From Campylobacteraceae bacterium (lineage in GTDB: Bacteria; Campylobacterota; Campylobacteria; Campylobacterales; Campylobacteraceae), in contig JAIRSJ010000099.1 in the NCBI GenBank assembly GCA_031255525.1, forward strand, positions 1-47,972: 47,972 nt of DNA, given 5' to 3'. The translations under genes were made by a program, and so were the position numbers. This document shows, piece by piece, positions 42,071 through 47,972 of the stretch (the stretch's first letter is position 1; each line of letters opens with the position of its first letter). The notes below the pieces were generated by a model. That model was not told the origin of the DNA and searched no databases. It was given only the letters and a program-made list of their open reading frames with translations.

Positions 42071-42104
42071 GTCATCACTGTACACTCCCTTAATTCGTAG
42101 ACAA
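42071..42104 (+). repeat. Dispersed repeat family A, copy 2
   Basis: GTCATCACTGTACACTCC followed by CTTAATTCGTAGACAA. The spacing between head and tail matches copy 1. A partial head (CCGTCATTCCTGTGC) lies directly upstream at 42038, so two copies may have been nested or partly deleted. Confidence 0.7.
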
Positions 42105-42221
42105 ATCATGAATAAAATCATGATCAAATTCATAGACAAAAACGCTAATAAAAAAACTGTTATATTGGCACAAAACAATGTAACACAAAAGAATACAAAA
42201 TGATAGAAATTGTTGAAAATT

Positions 42222-42323
42222 CCGTCTTTGCCGGCAATCCATTGTCCCTATTTCGTCTTTGCGAGCCGCTTGTGGCGTGGCAATCCATCCTCCAAGTCTT
42301 TGCGAGCGAAGCGAAGTAATCCA
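42222..42323 (+). repeat. Dispersed repeat family B, three tandem-like copies
   Basis: Three related units start at 42222 (CGTCTTTGCCGGCAATCCA), 42253 (CGTCTTTGCGAGCCGC, ending GGCAATCCA) and 42295 (AGTCTTTGCGAGCGAAGCGA, then AGTAATCCA). Inverted relatives lie at 42421-42445 and 42489-42522. This is the well-known type of interspersed element found between genes in many bacteria. Confidence 0.75.
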
Positions 42324-42573
42324 GAGGAACTATAAAAAATGTCAACAGTTTTAATATCTTTAAAAACAAAAACTTCTGATTTCAAGTTAAAACTATAGAA
42401 TATTAAACACTTCGTGTTTCCGGATTGCTTCGTCTCTTGCAACGACTTTTTTCTGTCATACCCACACAGGTAACAATAACATAATATGTGGATTGCTTCA
42501 TCTCTTCACTTTTCGTAATGACAAAAAATGTGTAAACAACTCTTCTTCTTTCCGCTATACCCATGTTTCCTTC

Positions 42574-42600
42574 CGTCATACCTGCGCAGGCAGGTATTCA
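42574..42600 (+). repeat. Dispersed palindromic repeat family C, copy 1
   Basis: CGTCATACCTGCGCAGGCAG followed by GTATTCA, with an internal CCTGCGCAGG palindrome. A near copy lies at 44266-44291 and a diverged one, in the opposite sense, at 44479-44508. Confidence 0.7.
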
Positions 42601-42848
42601 AAAAGAACGTTTTAATTAAATATAAAGATAAATTCCCGTATTCTTCGCAAATATTGTTTCTTTCGGAAACGATTACGTTCAAGCAAGGAATGGCAGAGTG
42701 TAGATTGTGTATTTCCCTTTCCATCATTCCTGTGCAAGCAAAAATCAAATCACAAACGCTGTTTATTAAAGAAAAACAGGAATTTTACCAAGTTTTCTTT
42801 ATTTAAAGTAAAAATTAAGACTTAATTTTATTTTATTATTGTATATAT

Positions 42849-42860
42849 TACTAATTAGTA
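42849..42860. promoter_or_regulatory. Candidate MarR operator
   Basis: A perfect 12-base palindrome TACTAATTAGTA lies 34 bases before the marR ATG, next to a TATATT that could serve as a -10 box. MarR proteins commonly bind such AT-rich palindromes over their own promoter, so autoregulation of the marR-pirin pair is a reasonable inference. Confidence 0.5.
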
Positions 42861-42893
42861 GTATTATTCATTCATCAAAAGTATGGAGATAAG

Positions 42894-43358
42894 ATGAAGT
42901 TAAACATCAAAAACAGTTTTGACGAGCGGACAGATAAGAGTATGCGCACATGGATACAACTTGTGAGAACATTTCAAAAGATAAGAGCTTATGAGCTTAT
43001 CTATATAAACCAAAATGCTTTAAGCATGAATCAGTTTGAAGTTTTGGAAGTGTTGTATCACAGAGGTGATATGCCCGTATCCACGATAACAAAGCTCATA
43101 TCAAGTACGCCCGGAAACGTTACTGTGGTCATTAAAAATCTGCAAAGAGATAAATTTGTGGAGATAAACGCGGGCAAAAACGATAAACGCGAGCGAATCG
43201 TCGGCATAACGCCTCTTGGAAAAGAGAAGATAGCATTAATGTTTGAACGCCATTCGCAAAATCTAAAACAGTGTTTTGAGGCTTTGAGCGACGAAGAGAT
43301 GGACGCTCTTTTTGTCTCTTTGCGAAAGATACATAAAACTAAATTAAAGGATATATGA
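42894..43358 (+). CDS. MarR-family transcriptional regulator
   Basis: The product is 154 aa with a winged helix-turn-helix (LSMNQFEVLEVLYHRGDMPVSTITKLISSTPGNVTVVIKNLQRDKFVEI) and the wing NDKRERIVGITPLGKEKI, flanked by dimerisation helices. It overlaps the pirin gene by 4 bases, so the two are probably co-translated and the regulator likely controls the pirin gene together with itself. The ligand is unknown; MarR-pirin pairs in other bacteria answer to phenolic or electrophilic compounds. The ATG has a GGAGAT ribosome site. Confidence 0.9.
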   Translation: MKLNIKNSFDERTDKSMRTWIQLVRTFQKIRAYELIYINQNALSMNQFEVLEVLYHRGDMPVSTITKLISSTPGNVTVVIKNLQRDKFVEINAGKNDKRERIVGITPLGKEKIALMFERHSQNLKQCFEALSDEEMDALFVSLRKIHKTKLKDI

Positions 43359-44059
43359 TGGTAAAAAAGATTGATTTTAACAAACTTTTTGTGAGCGATT
43401 TAGGCTGGCTTAAAAGCCGTTTTCACTTCTCTTTTGCGGAATATTTCGATCCGCAAAATATGCACTTCGGCGCTCTTCGCGTCATGAATGACGATATAGT
43501 ACAGCCCTTGAGCGGCTTTACAACTCATCCGCACAAAAATATGGAGATATTTTCTTATGTGCTTGACGGAGAGCTTACGCATGGGGACAGCATGGGCAAT
43601 GTGGAGACTCTGCAAAGGGGTGATGTGCAGTATATGTCGGCGGGCAGCGGGGTATTTCACTCGGAGATGAACAATCATCCGCAAAAACCATTGAGATTTA
43701 TCCAGACATGGATACTGCCGGATGAAAACGGACTCAAACCTCAATACGGCTCCAAGAAGTTCGTATTGGAAGACAGACTGAACAAATGGCTTCATCTTTT
43801 GGGAGATAAAAACTCAAACGCTCACATACGTTTCAATCAAGACGCAAATGTATATGTAAGCGAACTTGACGCGGGCAGGATGTTGAAAGTTGAGCTGGAC
43901 GATAATAGACAAGCCTACTTGAAAGTCATGGAAGGAAGCATAAAGATAGGAGATATGGAGTTTGCTCATGGAGATGCGGCTGAGATAACGGGCGATGCCG
44001 AGATACTGGCGCTTAAAAATTCTCATGTGATGCTGATAGAAATGAGTGAGGAGAGTTAA
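43355..44059 (+). CDS. Pirin-family (YhhW-like) bicupin protein
   Basis: The product is 234 aa with two cupin domains. The metal site residues are complete in the N-terminal cupin: His58 and His60 in THPHKN, His102 and Glu104 in VFHSEM, matching the YhhW quercetin-dioxygenase-like site almost residue for residue. Family members oxidise flavonoids in vitro; the true substrate is often unknown. ATG at 43355 overlaps the marR stop; a second ATG at 43358 is possible. Repeat-rich gaps lie on both sides of the pair. Confidence 0.9.
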   Translation: MMVKKIDFNKLFVSDLGWLKSRFHFSFAEYFDPQNMHFGALRVMNDDIVQPLSGFTTHPHKNMEIFSYVLDGELTHGDSMGNVETLQRGDVQYMSAGSGVFHSEMNNHPQKPLRFIQTWILPDENGLKPQYGSKKFVLEDRLNKWLHLLGDKNSNAHIRFNQDANVYVSELDAGRMLKVELDDNRQAYLKVMEGSIKIGDMEFAHGDAAEITGDAEILALKNSHVMLIEMSEES

Positions 44060-44195
44060 ACGGAAACTTAAACGAACTTAAGAGCTGGATAGACTTTTTT
44101 TGGAAATGTACAAAAAGTCTTCCACCCTCTCATGCAATATGTGTTTACTTTGTAAAGTTGCTGTTTGGTTGCGGGAATGATATCTTCTCACTTTT

Positions 44196-44237
44196 GTCAT
44201 TCCAGCACAGTTTCCTTAATTCGTGGACAAAAACCAC
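44196..44237 (+). repeat. Dispersed repeat family A, copy 3
   Basis: GTCATTCCAGCACAGTTTCC followed by TTAATTCGTGGACAAAAACCAC. It resembles copy 1, which lies about 2.2 kb away on the other side of the marR-pirin pair, in the same orientation. Confidence 0.75.
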
Positions 44238-44288
44238 TCTTTCCGTCATTCCTGTTTCCCTTTTCAGTCATACCTGCGTAGGCAGGTA

Positions 44289-44483
44289 CCCAAAACAAGC
44301 GAAGCGTTTTCAGATTGCTGAAATGTTTCCTTGAAAGCGCATGTAATAAGATTTTGCATATCAAAAAAGGTTAGGCACATAAAAAACCAAAAAAATCTTT
44401 TATCAAAACATGTTTGCAATACCCCTTAGGCGTGTTTCAAGGAAACATTTTGCTTTGACAAAAACGCTTCGCTTGTTTTGGAT
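44289..44483. mobile_element. MITE-like inverted repeat
   Basis: Two arms of about 48 bases (44289-44336 and 44435-44483) are inverted copies. The outer 20 bases (CCAAAACAAGCGAAGCGTTT) and the inner 16 bases (AAATGTTTCCTTGAAA) match exactly, with about 11 diverged bases between them. The spacer is 98 bases and non-coding. Family C repeats flank both arms. Size and structure suggest a miniature non-autonomous element or a composite of palindromic repeats; no transposase is present and no clear target duplication was seen. Confidence 0.45.
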
Positions 44484-44582
44484 TCCCGCGTCAAGCGCGA
44501 GAATGACGGAAGAAAGATGGATTGTGTTTTATTGTTTTACTCCATGTGTTATATTGTGCGTAAATAGCAGTTTTTATTTGTG

Positions 44583-44625
44583 TTTTGTCTATGAACTAAG
44601 TGAAGTGTACAGGAATGACGAAAAA
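44583..44625 (-). repeat. Dispersed repeat family A, copy 4 (inverted)
   Basis: Read on the minus strand it gives CGTCATTCCTGTACACTTCA then CTTAGTTCATAGACAAAA, so it is an inverted copy of the family found at 41989, 42071 and 44196. Confidence 0.75.
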
Positions 44626-44726
44626 GACATAAAATGACAAAATATGTGAAATTTTTGTCATAAACTTGAAATGCGAAACACGTCATGACAATCCGCTAAA
44701 GTATCTGCAAAAAGAGTTAAAAATCT

Positions 44727-44984
44727 TTAACTCTTTTTGAAAAACTCCTCTATCGGTACTTCAAACAGCTTGGAAAGCCTTAAAAGATGCTTTAGGTTGA
44801 AATGCTTTCCATGTGCGTAATTTTCTATTGATGCATAAAAGCCGGATGATTGCTGTCCAATAGAAAGCGCTGTTTCAAGCTGACTCATCTTTTTCTCTTT
44901 TCTAACTCTTTTAACATTACGAGATATATTTTCAAAAAATTCTTTCTCTTCTTCTATCGTTACAATATCAGGTAAATTAAACAT
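44727..44984 (-). CDS. XRE-family helix-turn-helix repressor-like protein
   Basis: The product is 85 aa. An HTH_3 domain covers about 20-80 (NVKRVRKEKKMSQLETALSIGQQSSGFYASIENYAHGKHFNLKHLLRLSKLFEVPIEEFF). It is a small DNA-binding protein with no effector domain. A TAAGGA ribosome site is 6-7 bases before the ATG. It is divergent from the broken lipoprotein gene, and two inverted repeats in the shared 94-bp gap are candidate operators. Confidence 0.85.
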   Translation of the reverse strand: MFNLPDIVTIEEEKEFFENISRNVKRVRKEKKMSQLETALSIGQQSSGFYASIENYAHGKHFNLKHLLRLSKLFEVPIEEFFKKS

Positions 44985-44991
44985 GTATATG

Positions 44992-45018
44992 TCCTTATAG
45001 CTAATTTTCCTATAAGGA
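44992..45018. promoter_or_regulatory. Inverted repeat, candidate operator 1 for the XRE protein
   Basis: TCCTTATAG and CTATAAGGA are perfect 9-base arms separated by 9 bases, just upstream of the XRE gene start. The left arm also contains that gene's ribosome site, so binding here or an RNA hairpin could both reduce its expression. Confidence 0.45.
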
Positions 45019-45027
45019 TATTTCTTA

Positions 45028-45033
45028 TATAAT
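45028..45033 (+). promoter_or_regulatory. Candidate -10 box for the lipoprotein/secreted-protein unit
   Basis: TATAAT lies 46 bases before the ATG at 45079, between the two inverted repeats. It is well placed for control by the divergent XRE protein. Confidence 0.45.
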
Positions 45034-45056
45034 TTCTTAGCAATTCTATATAGAGA

Positions 45057-45074
45057 ACTTTTCTATAGAAAAGT
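45057..45074. promoter_or_regulatory. Perfect 18-base palindrome, candidate operator 2
   Basis: ACTTTTCTATAGAAAAGT is self-complementary over its whole length and lies 4 bases before the ATG at 45079. It shares the core TATAG(G/A)AAAA with one side of the repeat at 44992-45018 read on the other strand. Confidence 0.5.
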
Positions 45075-45078
45075 AAAT

Positions 45079-45671
45079 ATGAAAAATATATTTGAGATAG
45101 CTTTATTTGGCTTTGGCTTTGAGTGGTTGTAAAAAAGATGAGTCTAATAGCAATTCAAACAATAGTTCGGATACGGCTGTGAAGGAAATGTGGTAGTAAA
45201 TGGATACGAACTTCCTCCATGCCCTGACCCAAAAGAGAATGATAAAACGCTTCTTGGCATTGATAGCAACAATAACGGTGTTAGAGACGATGTAGAAAGA
45301 TGGCTCATTGTAAAGTATAAAGATCATCATAAGATAGTTACTGAGATTGGGTTTCAAGGGGCAAAAGCTTCACAGATAGTTATACAAGACCCAAGTAAAG
45401 CAAGGGAAACCACGAAACTTGAAGAGGCAGCGCAAGATTGCAATAGTTATTTTGGAGTTTATGCACAATACAACAATGAACCTCTCTTGATAGACCATAA
45501 TATCATTACTTCAACTGCTTTTAATACTATTCATTCAATACGAAGGAGAGAATAGAAGCTTATCTCGCTTATGATAGAGCTTTAAGCGGCGGAGTATACT
45601 CTACTCCTCAAGGCAGCAAAGCATATAGGGCTTTATGTGACTTTGATGTAGACAATTTCTTAAATAAATAA
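45079..45671 (+). pseudogene. Lipoprotein gene disrupted by three frameshifts
   Basis: Four coding pieces are needed to read this gene. The start (MKNIFEIALFGF) is in one frame. The lipobox piece ALSGCKKDESNSNSNNSSD, from about 45116, is shifted by one. The main body from about 45166 returns to the first frame (GCEGNVVVNGYELPPCPDP, LLGIDSNNNGVRDDVERW). The end from about 45540 needs a third frame (NTKERIEAYLAYDRALSGGV, ending DVDNFLNK at 45671). The body resembles a family of secreted lipoproteins with the NNNGVRDDVERW motif; function is unknown. Neighbours are intact, so true decay is more likely than local sequence error, but read data would decide. Confidence 0.75.
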
Positions 45672-45687
45672 AGTTAAGGAGCAGACA

Positions 45688-47622
45688 ATGAAAACAATTA
45701 CATATAATAATATGAAGTCAATTTTGGTAAAAATAGTTTTTATTTTAGGACTTATATTTACAGGTTTTGCAAATGCCGCTATAGATAATATAATCATAGA
45801 TGAGAGGATAAATGATGTCTATTATTTGAATGGGAAACTTATTACCAAAAGAGATGCAAAAAAATCATTGGACTTAATTGAGGATATAATTCTTAATGAT
45901 ACTTATAAAGGTGATAAATTAGCGAAAAAACGTGAAACCAATTTTGACCTCCTTTACAACAGCTCATACGGTTTCTATGTTGATCTATTGGAAGCATTTA
46001 ACCAAAAGAAAGCAGATCATCAGTATTTCTGGATAACGGTAGAAGCTGTGGTAACTATAGCAGGTAAAACATCTACAATAGGTATAGCAACAGATACTGC
46101 AAAAGGTAAGGTTTTGGATATGATAGCCAAAGAGATGCTAAATACAGCAAAAGAGTTGGCAATAACAGGAGGTCTTGAAGCAGTAGATCAGGAGTGGCTT
46201 AAAAATATTATAAGTTCTATAGAAGATGCTCTAAAGAAAAGAACAGGTTCATATACATGGAGTATGATTAATGCAATAAGCGATACTTTACAGGAGATGG
46301 ACTTAAATGTTCAGTTTGAAGCATTAAGCAATGGTATTGCATCCGGTCATCAAGCTATTATTGTAGCTCATGCGGAAGGTAACTTTTTCATCAATGATTT
46401 GGACGACAGATTTGATAAATATAACAAATCATGGATGAAGCAGCATATCAAGTCAATATCCATATCAAATCCTTCAAATAAAGTTTCATTCGGAGGTTCT
46501 CACATAACTTATGATAATGACCCCATAATAAAATGGCCTGATAGAGTTGGTCCTGATACCTTAAATCCTCTTAGATACAGAAGGTTTTATCTGCGATATG
46601 ACTATAACGGAACTTTATCGGATGACGATGTTTCGGATATTATAGATTATGTAAAAGCTATGAATATGCCTGATGAGTGTAAAGTCTCACTTGGATTTTA
46701 CTTTAAAGACGATATAGCGGATATTTGTTATAACAGTGCAAATATAGCGCTGTTTGATATACCAAACAGTGAATTTCATTCGTTTGAATATTATATGAGA
46801 GAAAATCTTGTATCAGATACAGGATCTGTGCGGCAAAATCCTTCAAGAAAGTATATAACAGACTTTTTGTCTAATAGTATAGTCTCATTTAGAACTGCCC
46901 CTTCACAGTGGAAAGTAATAGAAAAACAAGAGAGCGAAATAAAAACCTGTGAAGACAAACTGCTAAAAACAAAACATATGTATGACGATAGCATAAATGA
47001 TATAGACAAAGTCTATCCATTTGATAAAACAGGTAAAGTTTACCCTGTAAACGGAGAATATGTGAAAGGTTCTATAGATGGAGTGGAGATAGAAAGCCAT
47101 AAAGACAAAGATGTCTGCTATAAATTAATTGACGAAAACAATGAAACTGTTGGAAAGATAGACGGGATAGCTATAAAACAAACACGATTAGTTATTGTAG
47201 AAGGTGCATCCATACGACATGACTTTTACGATTATATCAAATTTAGAGACTATGTTGCGCAAATAGGTGGTGCTACTCTTCTTGAAATTAGCGAGAATTG
47301 GTATATTTATGGGCGTAACCATGACGATGTTAACAGGACTTATCCGATTTATGCCTCTCCTCTGAATTTTGATTTTGATATTAATGAATCTCATTTGTTT
47401 ATTACTTTGCTTGGAAAGTGCACCCCTGTCTTTAGGATCCCATTAACAATGCTTATAGCAAACAACGGACATATTGCAGATTTAAAGAACAACGAAAAAG
47501 GAGAATTTACAATATATAGCAACTTCAAACCAAGCAACTGGAGAACTGGCAATAAGGGTGTTTTATCTACTTTTATCGATTACAGGGATATTTGTGAAAA
47601 TATGTCATGGATATATGATTAA
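45688..47622 (+). CDS. Large secreted protein with degenerate lipase/esterase-like core
   Basis: The product is 644 aa with a signal peptide (VKIVFILGLIFTGFANA, cleavage after about residue 30) and an AGGAG ribosome site about 8 bases before the ATG. A central block looks like a secreted alpha/beta hydrolase: IIVAHAEGN (227-232) aligns with the usual VAHSQGN nucleophile elbow, SISNPSNKVSFGGSHITYDNDP (Asp276/Asp278) with the acid region, and FHSFEYYM (His364) with the histidine region. Ala229 sits where the catalytic Ser is expected, so the protein is probably not a classical esterase. The C-terminal 280 residues were not recognised. It follows the broken lipoprotein gene by 16 bases and may share its promoter. 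Confidence 0.7.
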   Translation: MKTITYNNMKSILVKIVFILGLIFTGFANAAIDNIIIDERINDVYYLNGKLITKRDAKKSLDLIEDIILNDTYKGDKLAKKRETNFDLLYNSSYGFYVDLLEAFNQKKADHQYFWITVEAVVTIAGKTSTIGIATDTAKGKVLDMIAKEMLNTAKELAITGGLEAVDQEWLKNIISSIEDALKKRTGSYTWSMINAISDTLQEMDLNVQFEALSNGIASGHQAIIVAHAEGNFFINDLDDRFDKYNKSWMKQHIKSISISNPSNKVSFGGSHITYDNDPIIKWPDRVGPDTLNPLRYRRFYLRYDYNGTLSDDDVSDIIDYVKAMNMPDECKVSLGFYFKDDIADICYNSANIALFDIPNSEFHSFEYYMRENLVSDTGSVRQNPSRKYITDFLSNSIVSFRTAPSQWKVIEKQESEIKTCEDKLLKTKHMYDDSINDIDKVYPFDKTGKVYPVNGEYVKGSIDGVEIESHKDKDVCYKLIDENNETVGKIDGIAIKQTRLVIVEGASIRHDFYDYIKFRDYVAQIGGATLLEISENWYIYGRNHDDVNRTYPIYASPLNFDFDINESHLFITLLGKCTPVFRIPLTMLIANNGHIADLKNNEKGEFTIYSNFKPSNWRTGNKGVLSTFIDYRDICENMSWIYD

Positions 47623-47740
47623 TGACGATTATGGCAAGATTTATATTAGTTATGATTGGACTTATGAAGGTGTAGTTTTTGAATGCTTGGTGGGAGGAAT
47701 TGCATTTGCTATATGGGTTACTGCACTTGGGATTAAGTGA
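47615..47740 (+). CDS. Possible 41-aa membrane peptide
   Basis: An ATG at 47615 overlaps the stop of the 644-aa gene (ATGATTAA) and opens a 41-codon frame. It has a short polar start (MINDDYGKIYISYDW) and one hydrophobic segment (CLVGGIAFAIWVTALGI). The overlap would allow coupled translation, and the sequence has the form of a single-pass membrane peptide. There is no separate ribosome site and no recognised family, so this may be chance. Confidence 0.35.
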   Translation: MINDDYGKIYISYDWTYEGVVFECLVGGIAFAIWVTALGIK

Positions 47741-47797
47741 TTTTTTTATGCTCAAAAGAACTTAACAAGAATAATGATAAATATTAGATTATCCCTT

Positions 47798-47972
47798 TTA
47801 ACTTACCTTAAATTCTGTTGGTATCGGCGATTCAAAACTATATTCGAGCAGTTCAATCTTCCATGCATGCAGCATTATTCTTGAAGCGCTTTTGCCGCCG
47901 TATTTTTCATCTCCAACTATTGAAAAACCAATACTTTTAAGATGCGCTCTTATCTGATGAGTTCTTCCTGTC
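47798..47972 (-). CDS. RluA-family pseudouridine synthase, C-terminal part (cut by window edge)
   Basis: The last 58 codons of a gene entering from the right edge, ending at TAA 47798-47800. TGRTHQIRAHLKSIGFSIVGDEKYGG is the conserved C-terminal RNA-binding segment of RluA-type synthases, and RIMLHAWKIEL follows. It is distinct from the RluD-like gene at 25093. The exact class cannot be told from the fragment. Confidence 0.85.
   Translation of the reverse strand, partial: TGRTHQIRAHLKSIGFSIVGDEKYGGKSASRIMLHAWKIELLEYSFESPIPTEFKVS

Follow-up and report, generated by a model that had tools for sequence, protein, structure and literature searches.

A secreted lipase-fold protein with alanine in place of the putative nucleophilic serine, encoded beside a broken lipoprotein gene in a Campylobacteraceae genome

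Several proteins keep the alpha/beta-hydrolase fold with a non-functional triad: neuroligins, glutactin, gliotactin, neurotactin and the C-terminal domain of thyroglobulin are non-catalytic and reuse the fold for extracellular binding or as a chaperone domain (PMC5943944). Among enzymes, the lipase of Archaeoglobus fulgidus (structures 2zyr, 2zys and 2zyh) gave the best fold match to a compact member, L089, of the family described here, and the title of its published description, as listed in PMC6501381, assigns it an alpha/beta-hydrolase domain plus a C-terminal domain.

We analysed a gene in the window, a 47,972-nucleotide stretch that represents one contig of a 1.53-Mb draft genome (117 contigs, 89% complete). 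Isolate codes hint that the genus may come from termite guts. The gene and its upstream partner sit between ffh and an rluD-like gene, and the gene runs from its ATG through 644 codons without an internal stop. A preliminary description of the sequence had read the product as a secreted hydrolase-like protein with Ala in place of the catalytic Ser. The landmarks on which that reading was built, namely VAHAEGN at residues 226-232, Ala229 encoded by GCG at 46372-46374 (a single base away from TCG, Ser), TYDNDP and FHSF, all lie where they had been placed. The features of the gene are as follows.

45688..47622, + strand: hydrolase-like secreted protein of 644 aa, intact ORF, with an AAGGAG ribosome-binding site upstream of the first ATG
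45688..45777, + strand: predicted signal peptide, residues 1-30 (ending in GLIFTGFANA, followed by AID), read from the sequence
46021..46341, + strand: long helical segment ahead of the elbow, residues 112-218; model confidence is mostly low to moderate up to residue ~200
46363..46383, + strand: nucleophile elbow VAHAEGN, residues 226-232, from sequence, family alignment and model
46519..46521, + strand: Asp278 in DNDP, putative catalytic acid, invariant in the family alignment
46777..46779, + strand: His364 in FHSFEYY, putative catalytic histidine, from the family alignment
47002..47517, + strand: C-terminal all-beta region, residues ~439-610, from the model and from alignment by eye to a DUF2135-like domain after the hydrolase domain in giant relatives

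Met9 (45712) corresponds to the aligned family start, with M9/K10 conserved, and Glu230, next to the substituted Ala, replaces a nearly invariant Gln.

The protein matches no Pfam or NCBIfam family above the curated cut-offs, PDB sequence searches gave the family no name, and a literature search for the AHSQGN motif found no paper in the library covered. LCAT, Palm_thioest, DUF3089, DUF900 and Abhydrolase_6 occur as isolated weak Pfam matches in a few family members, none of them strong, and the window protein matches none of these. A scan of the genome contigs with the single protein sequence returned no match; relatives were found with an alignment (profile) as query in its place, and the whole-genome searches are profile-based. 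These searches detected relatives in the same genus and, across the order, in 38 of 399 genomes. Named genomes contributed 119 candidate places, of which 80 were retained; one of the two patterns used for the 119 accepted only Ser, Ala or Gly at position 229, and other residues are possibly under-counted there. Most named-genome members belong to Campylobacterota (Sulfurovum, Sulfurimonas, Sulfurospirillum arcachonense, Arcobacter and Campylobacteraceae MAGs), and further members come from Pseudomonas akapageensis, Ferrimonas, Candidatus Brocadia, Scalindua, Desulfobacterota, Nitrospirota and Patescibacteria. Conservation over 63 aligned rows shows that the landmarks exceed a chance resemblance: G231, F234, D278 and Y369 are invariant, and H228, S229, Q230, N232, P262, H364 and F366 are conserved in at least 90% of rows. 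Since S229, D278 and H364 are among the conserved positions, we infer that the family triad is Ser229/Asp278/His364. Both Asp276 and Asp278 had been named in the acid region TYDNDP; the second fits this assignment and the first is not the acid. Neither Pfam nor NCBIfam has an entry for the family, and the lipase-lipoprotein pair that it forms appears to be undescribed.

The AlphaFold model of the window protein, computed from the 63-row alignment, has a mean pLDDT of 77.9 and a pTM of 0.71, and puts residue 229 at the turn that links strand 222-228 to helix 231-244, with a pLDDT of 97-98 around the elbow. Foldseek searches with this full-length model gave no PDB match below 1e-3, and BFVD likewise gave nothing clear; alpha/beta hydrolases (the Nir2 DDHD domain, cutinase and DUF676) were among the higher-probability matches, and phospholipase A1 was also matched. 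L089, a compact Ser-bearing relative of 412 aa from Candidatus Brocadia sapporoensis (model pLDDT 88.0, pTM 0.85), shows the same strand/helix elbow, and its best Foldseek match is 2zyr, a structure of the A. fulgidus lipase (probability 1.00, E 8.8e-6), with cutinases next; among its five best matches is 2zyh, the S136A mutant of that lipase with a fatty-acid fragment. The alpha/beta-hydrolase fold of the window protein is thus supported by homology to the modelled L089, and the secreted hydrolase-like core proposed earlier is supported, with VAHAEGN at a strand/helix elbow in the model of the window protein and a family fold that matches lipases.

Ala is not found at position 229 throughout the homologues, a question that the preliminary description had raised. 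The 98 aligned rows carry Ser 87 times, Gly 8 times and Ala 3 times at this residue; at position 364, 93 rows have His, 2 have Asn, 1 has Tyr and 2 have no letter. Of the two nearest orthologues, G012 has Ser-Gln at 229-230 and G004 has Ala-Glu, as does the window protein. The candidate explanation that Ala229 is common to the whole clade is rejected by the Ser of G012 and by these counts. VAHSQGN, given earlier as the elbow of related proteins, is indeed the reading of most of the family but not of the closest orthologues, which have IAHSQGN and IAHAEGN. Of the triad, the nucleophile alone is replaced in the window protein, as had been noted, with Asp278 and His364 present; two further relatives combine changes differently, G013 having Ser-Glu at 229-230 together with Asn364, and G005 Ala-Gln together with Asn364. 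Where Ser is present at 229 its codon is TCG in relative G006 and TCT in G012 and G013, and orthologues carrying Ser or Ala at the nucleophile position are about 60% identical. On the 98-row family tree, built without the trait columns, there are at least seven changes between Ser and non-Ser, three of them in this genus, in a parsimony count that cannot separate repeated loss from loss plus reversal. A more careful tree resolves the close relatives as (G013,(window,(G012,G004))), with at least three changes on 13 rows. A sister pairing of the window protein with G004, the other Ala orthologue, was rejected (AU p 0.0038), and the sign of acceleration given by a long window branch in a quick tree was removed by the careful tree and by an even number of unique changes on the two sides (67 v 66 against G013). 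Gly occupies the elbow in L068, L082, L036 (uncultured Campylobacterales HLG_WM_MAG_12), L121, L125 and L144, and Gly relatives with a near-full-length domain have lost other conserved positions too. The Gly-bearing sequences suggest older pseudo-hydrolases.

The same domain also occurs at the N-terminus of very long open reading frames with cadherin and LVIVD repeats, of 1903 aa in G013, 2619 aa in G005 and 4168 aa in G004 (contig 15), at loci L021:6306-12017, L022:125-7984 and L024:279-12785. The triads of these giants are broken: His364 is Asn in L021 and L022, so that G013 has Ser with Asn364 and G005 Ala with Asn364, and the 4168-aa protein of G004 has Gly at the elbow. The window protein stops beyond its all-beta region, which a by-eye alignment matches to the DUF2135-like domain in the giants. 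The use of the domain as the N-terminal module of cadherin/LVIVD proteins of 1,900-4,200 aa suggests a role in surface binding or adhesion.

Constraint on the window protein was assessed over 30 positions other than 229 at which at least 80% of the Ser-bearing rows agree. It keeps 26 of these, the changes being Y213L, V223A, Q230E and A260S. Four changes are likewise seen in G012, the orthologue with Ser (Y213L, V223A, A260S and I390V), three of them in common with the window protein, which leaves Q230E, also present in G004 and G013, as the single extra loss. By a simple Nei-Gojobori count dN/dS is about 0.29 for the window protein against either G004 or G012, at a dS of about 1, and 0.23 for G012 against G004, values that are averaged over the whole branch and so cannot date S229A; the control genes ffh (0.07) and rimM (0.14) both lie below 0.29. 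About 5% of single-base changes create a stop, and without selection an ORF of this length should stay open no further than ~0.03 substitutions per site (P at least 0.05). Because the ORF is open, dN/dS is 0.29 and the conserved sites are kept, we conclude from these comparisons that the protein has been constrained for most of its history, with S229A undated within it.

Relatives have, immediately upstream of the hydrolase gene, a lipoprotein gene that bears a GIDSNNNGVRDDVE motif. Of 89 loci, 75 have the motif GIDxNxNGVRDDVE within 1.5 kb upstream, and of 415 random windows 39 have it; these windows were drawn from the same loci and themselves include partner genes. Campylobacterota, Desulfobacterota and Planctomycetota are among the phyla in which the lipase-fold protein is tied to the lipoprotein. 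The partner is intact in G012 and G004, and intact partners in relatives measure 206-210 aa. Its counterpart in the window is broken, an observation absent from the preliminary description.

45079..45671, + strand: broken partner lipoprotein gene, recognised by coding similarity to intact partners, split over frames
45247..45309 (approximate), + strand: LLGIDSNNNGVRDDVERW motif of the partner family, an Asp-rich loop that resembles calcium-binding loops, by resemblance only

One frame covers 45166-45534, another 45531-45662, and the lipobox LSGC is displaced to the third; one frame break, near 45531-45541, is certain, and two more in the N-terminal part are probable from the displaced LSGC. 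Because the intact stretch still shows a dN/dS of about 0.23, the death of the partner gene is judged from its coding pattern to be recent. The only other family locus found in the genome (G000:C105:28589-29681, equivalent to L033:6590-7682) combines an undamaged lipoprotein gene with a downstream hydrolase ORF cut to 107 aa, which ends ahead of an unrelated opposite-strand gene, and several genus members have truncated or split copies. The ffh-rluD interval differs between species in the version of the pair that it contains (window positions 42100-47800 and L026); that of G004 holds a more divergent, split pair. Elsewhere in the genus the pair lies between other housekeeping genes, as if it had come and gone at many sites. 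An intergenic inverted repeat at 44282-44489 (29-nt arms, 90% complementary; partial copies on the same contig, C33 and C105) looks like a small repetitive element, and a small ORF directly upstream of the partner, at 44730-44985 (-), reads by eye as an Xre-type helix-turn-helix protein.

There is good support for the gene product being a secreted lipase-fold protein whose family nucleophile is missing; that it is a secreted pseudo-lipase with a retained binding function is our main reading, at a probability of about 0.5. By established chemistry no acyl-enzyme would form without the elbow Ser, and ester hydrolysis by the normal route would be lost with Ser229. Beyond the inner membrane, the pocket and surfaces would continue to bind a partner or a ligand (lipid or ester), and this predicted binding would be what selection has kept. 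The frameshifted partner, the reduction of the only other genome copy to 107 aa and a dN/dS above those of ffh and rimM speak against a retained role, and the lipase-lipoprotein system may be decaying in this genome.

Quite possibly, if at less than even odds, an ordinary secreted lipase/esterase has just lost its Ser together with its lipoprotein partner and is becoming a pseudogene. Such recent inactivation would agree with the one certain and two probable frame breaks in a partner whose intact stretch still looks constrained, with the truncated second copy and the truncated or split copies elsewhere in the genus, and with the neutral distance over which an ORF could stay open. It accounts less well for a protein in which a single conserved site beyond S229A is lost, one whose change is common to two relatives, for the Ala orthologue of G004, with an intact partner and an intact ORF, and for the very long ORFs kept in G005 and G013 despite their broken triads. 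We rank retained binding above recent inactivation on two grounds, the preserved core and the recurrence of comparable losses in long ORFs that are intact. The preliminary description had offered a binding or sensor protein, or recent inactivation: the constrained ORF favours the non-catalytic role, the broken partner keeps inactivation in play, and the sensor part finds no support.

It is improbable that the protein is still a hydrolase in which the part of Ser229 is taken by something else, such as Glu230 or a water that His364 activates. Asp278 and His364 are retained, and Glu230 is a rare change beside the elbow, seen in three relatives, but it comes after the elbow apex, where none of the Asp nucleophiles that we know of in the alpha/beta-hydrolase fold is placed; moreover, G013 has Glu230 together with Ser229, so Glu is no regular substitute for Ser, and G005 combines Ala229 with Asn364. 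Very unlikely, even in a draft genome, is a sequencing or assembly artefact in which residue 229 is really Ser and the frame breaks of the partner stem from misassembly, because the long neighbouring ORFs of the window are intact, and an orthologue from a separate genome has Ala-Glu at the same place and the partner has several separate breaks.

Beyond the retained binding of this one protein, a wider proposal is doubtful: the lipoprotein and lipase-fold protein, the latter sometimes extended into giant cadherin/LVIVD surface proteins, may form a cross-phylum pair in which selection has repeatedly favoured nucleophile loss as a switch from hydrolysing lipids to binding lipids or surfaces, in progress within one genus. 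Transitions from enzyme to binder mostly come to light when they are long past. In this case, orthologues with Ser or Ala in the genus (and Gly elsewhere in the family) and relatives with a His or Asn base leave the transition open to side-by-side biochemistry, and the family may provide a natural series that runs from enzymes to binding proteins.

Compared with known systems, the A. fulgidus lipase shares only about 12% identity and an overall TM-score near 0.3 with L089, and in its native form has the catalytic Ser; the ligand in its S136A mutant 2zyh offers a precedent, by analogy, for ligand retention in a lipase whose Ser has become Ala. Fungal cutinases (1xzd, 7cy9) match L089 with Foldseek probabilities of 0.9-1.0, but they consist of a single small domain with other surroundings and are catalytic, and the class 3 lipases and DDHD proteins are weaker matches (phospholipase A1, DDHD), obtained from the full-length window model. 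The neuroligin-type proteins are relatives of animal cholinesterases and are compared here by way of working only, not by sequence kinship; unlike in that set, close bacterial orthologues in the family of the window protein switch between Ser and Ala.
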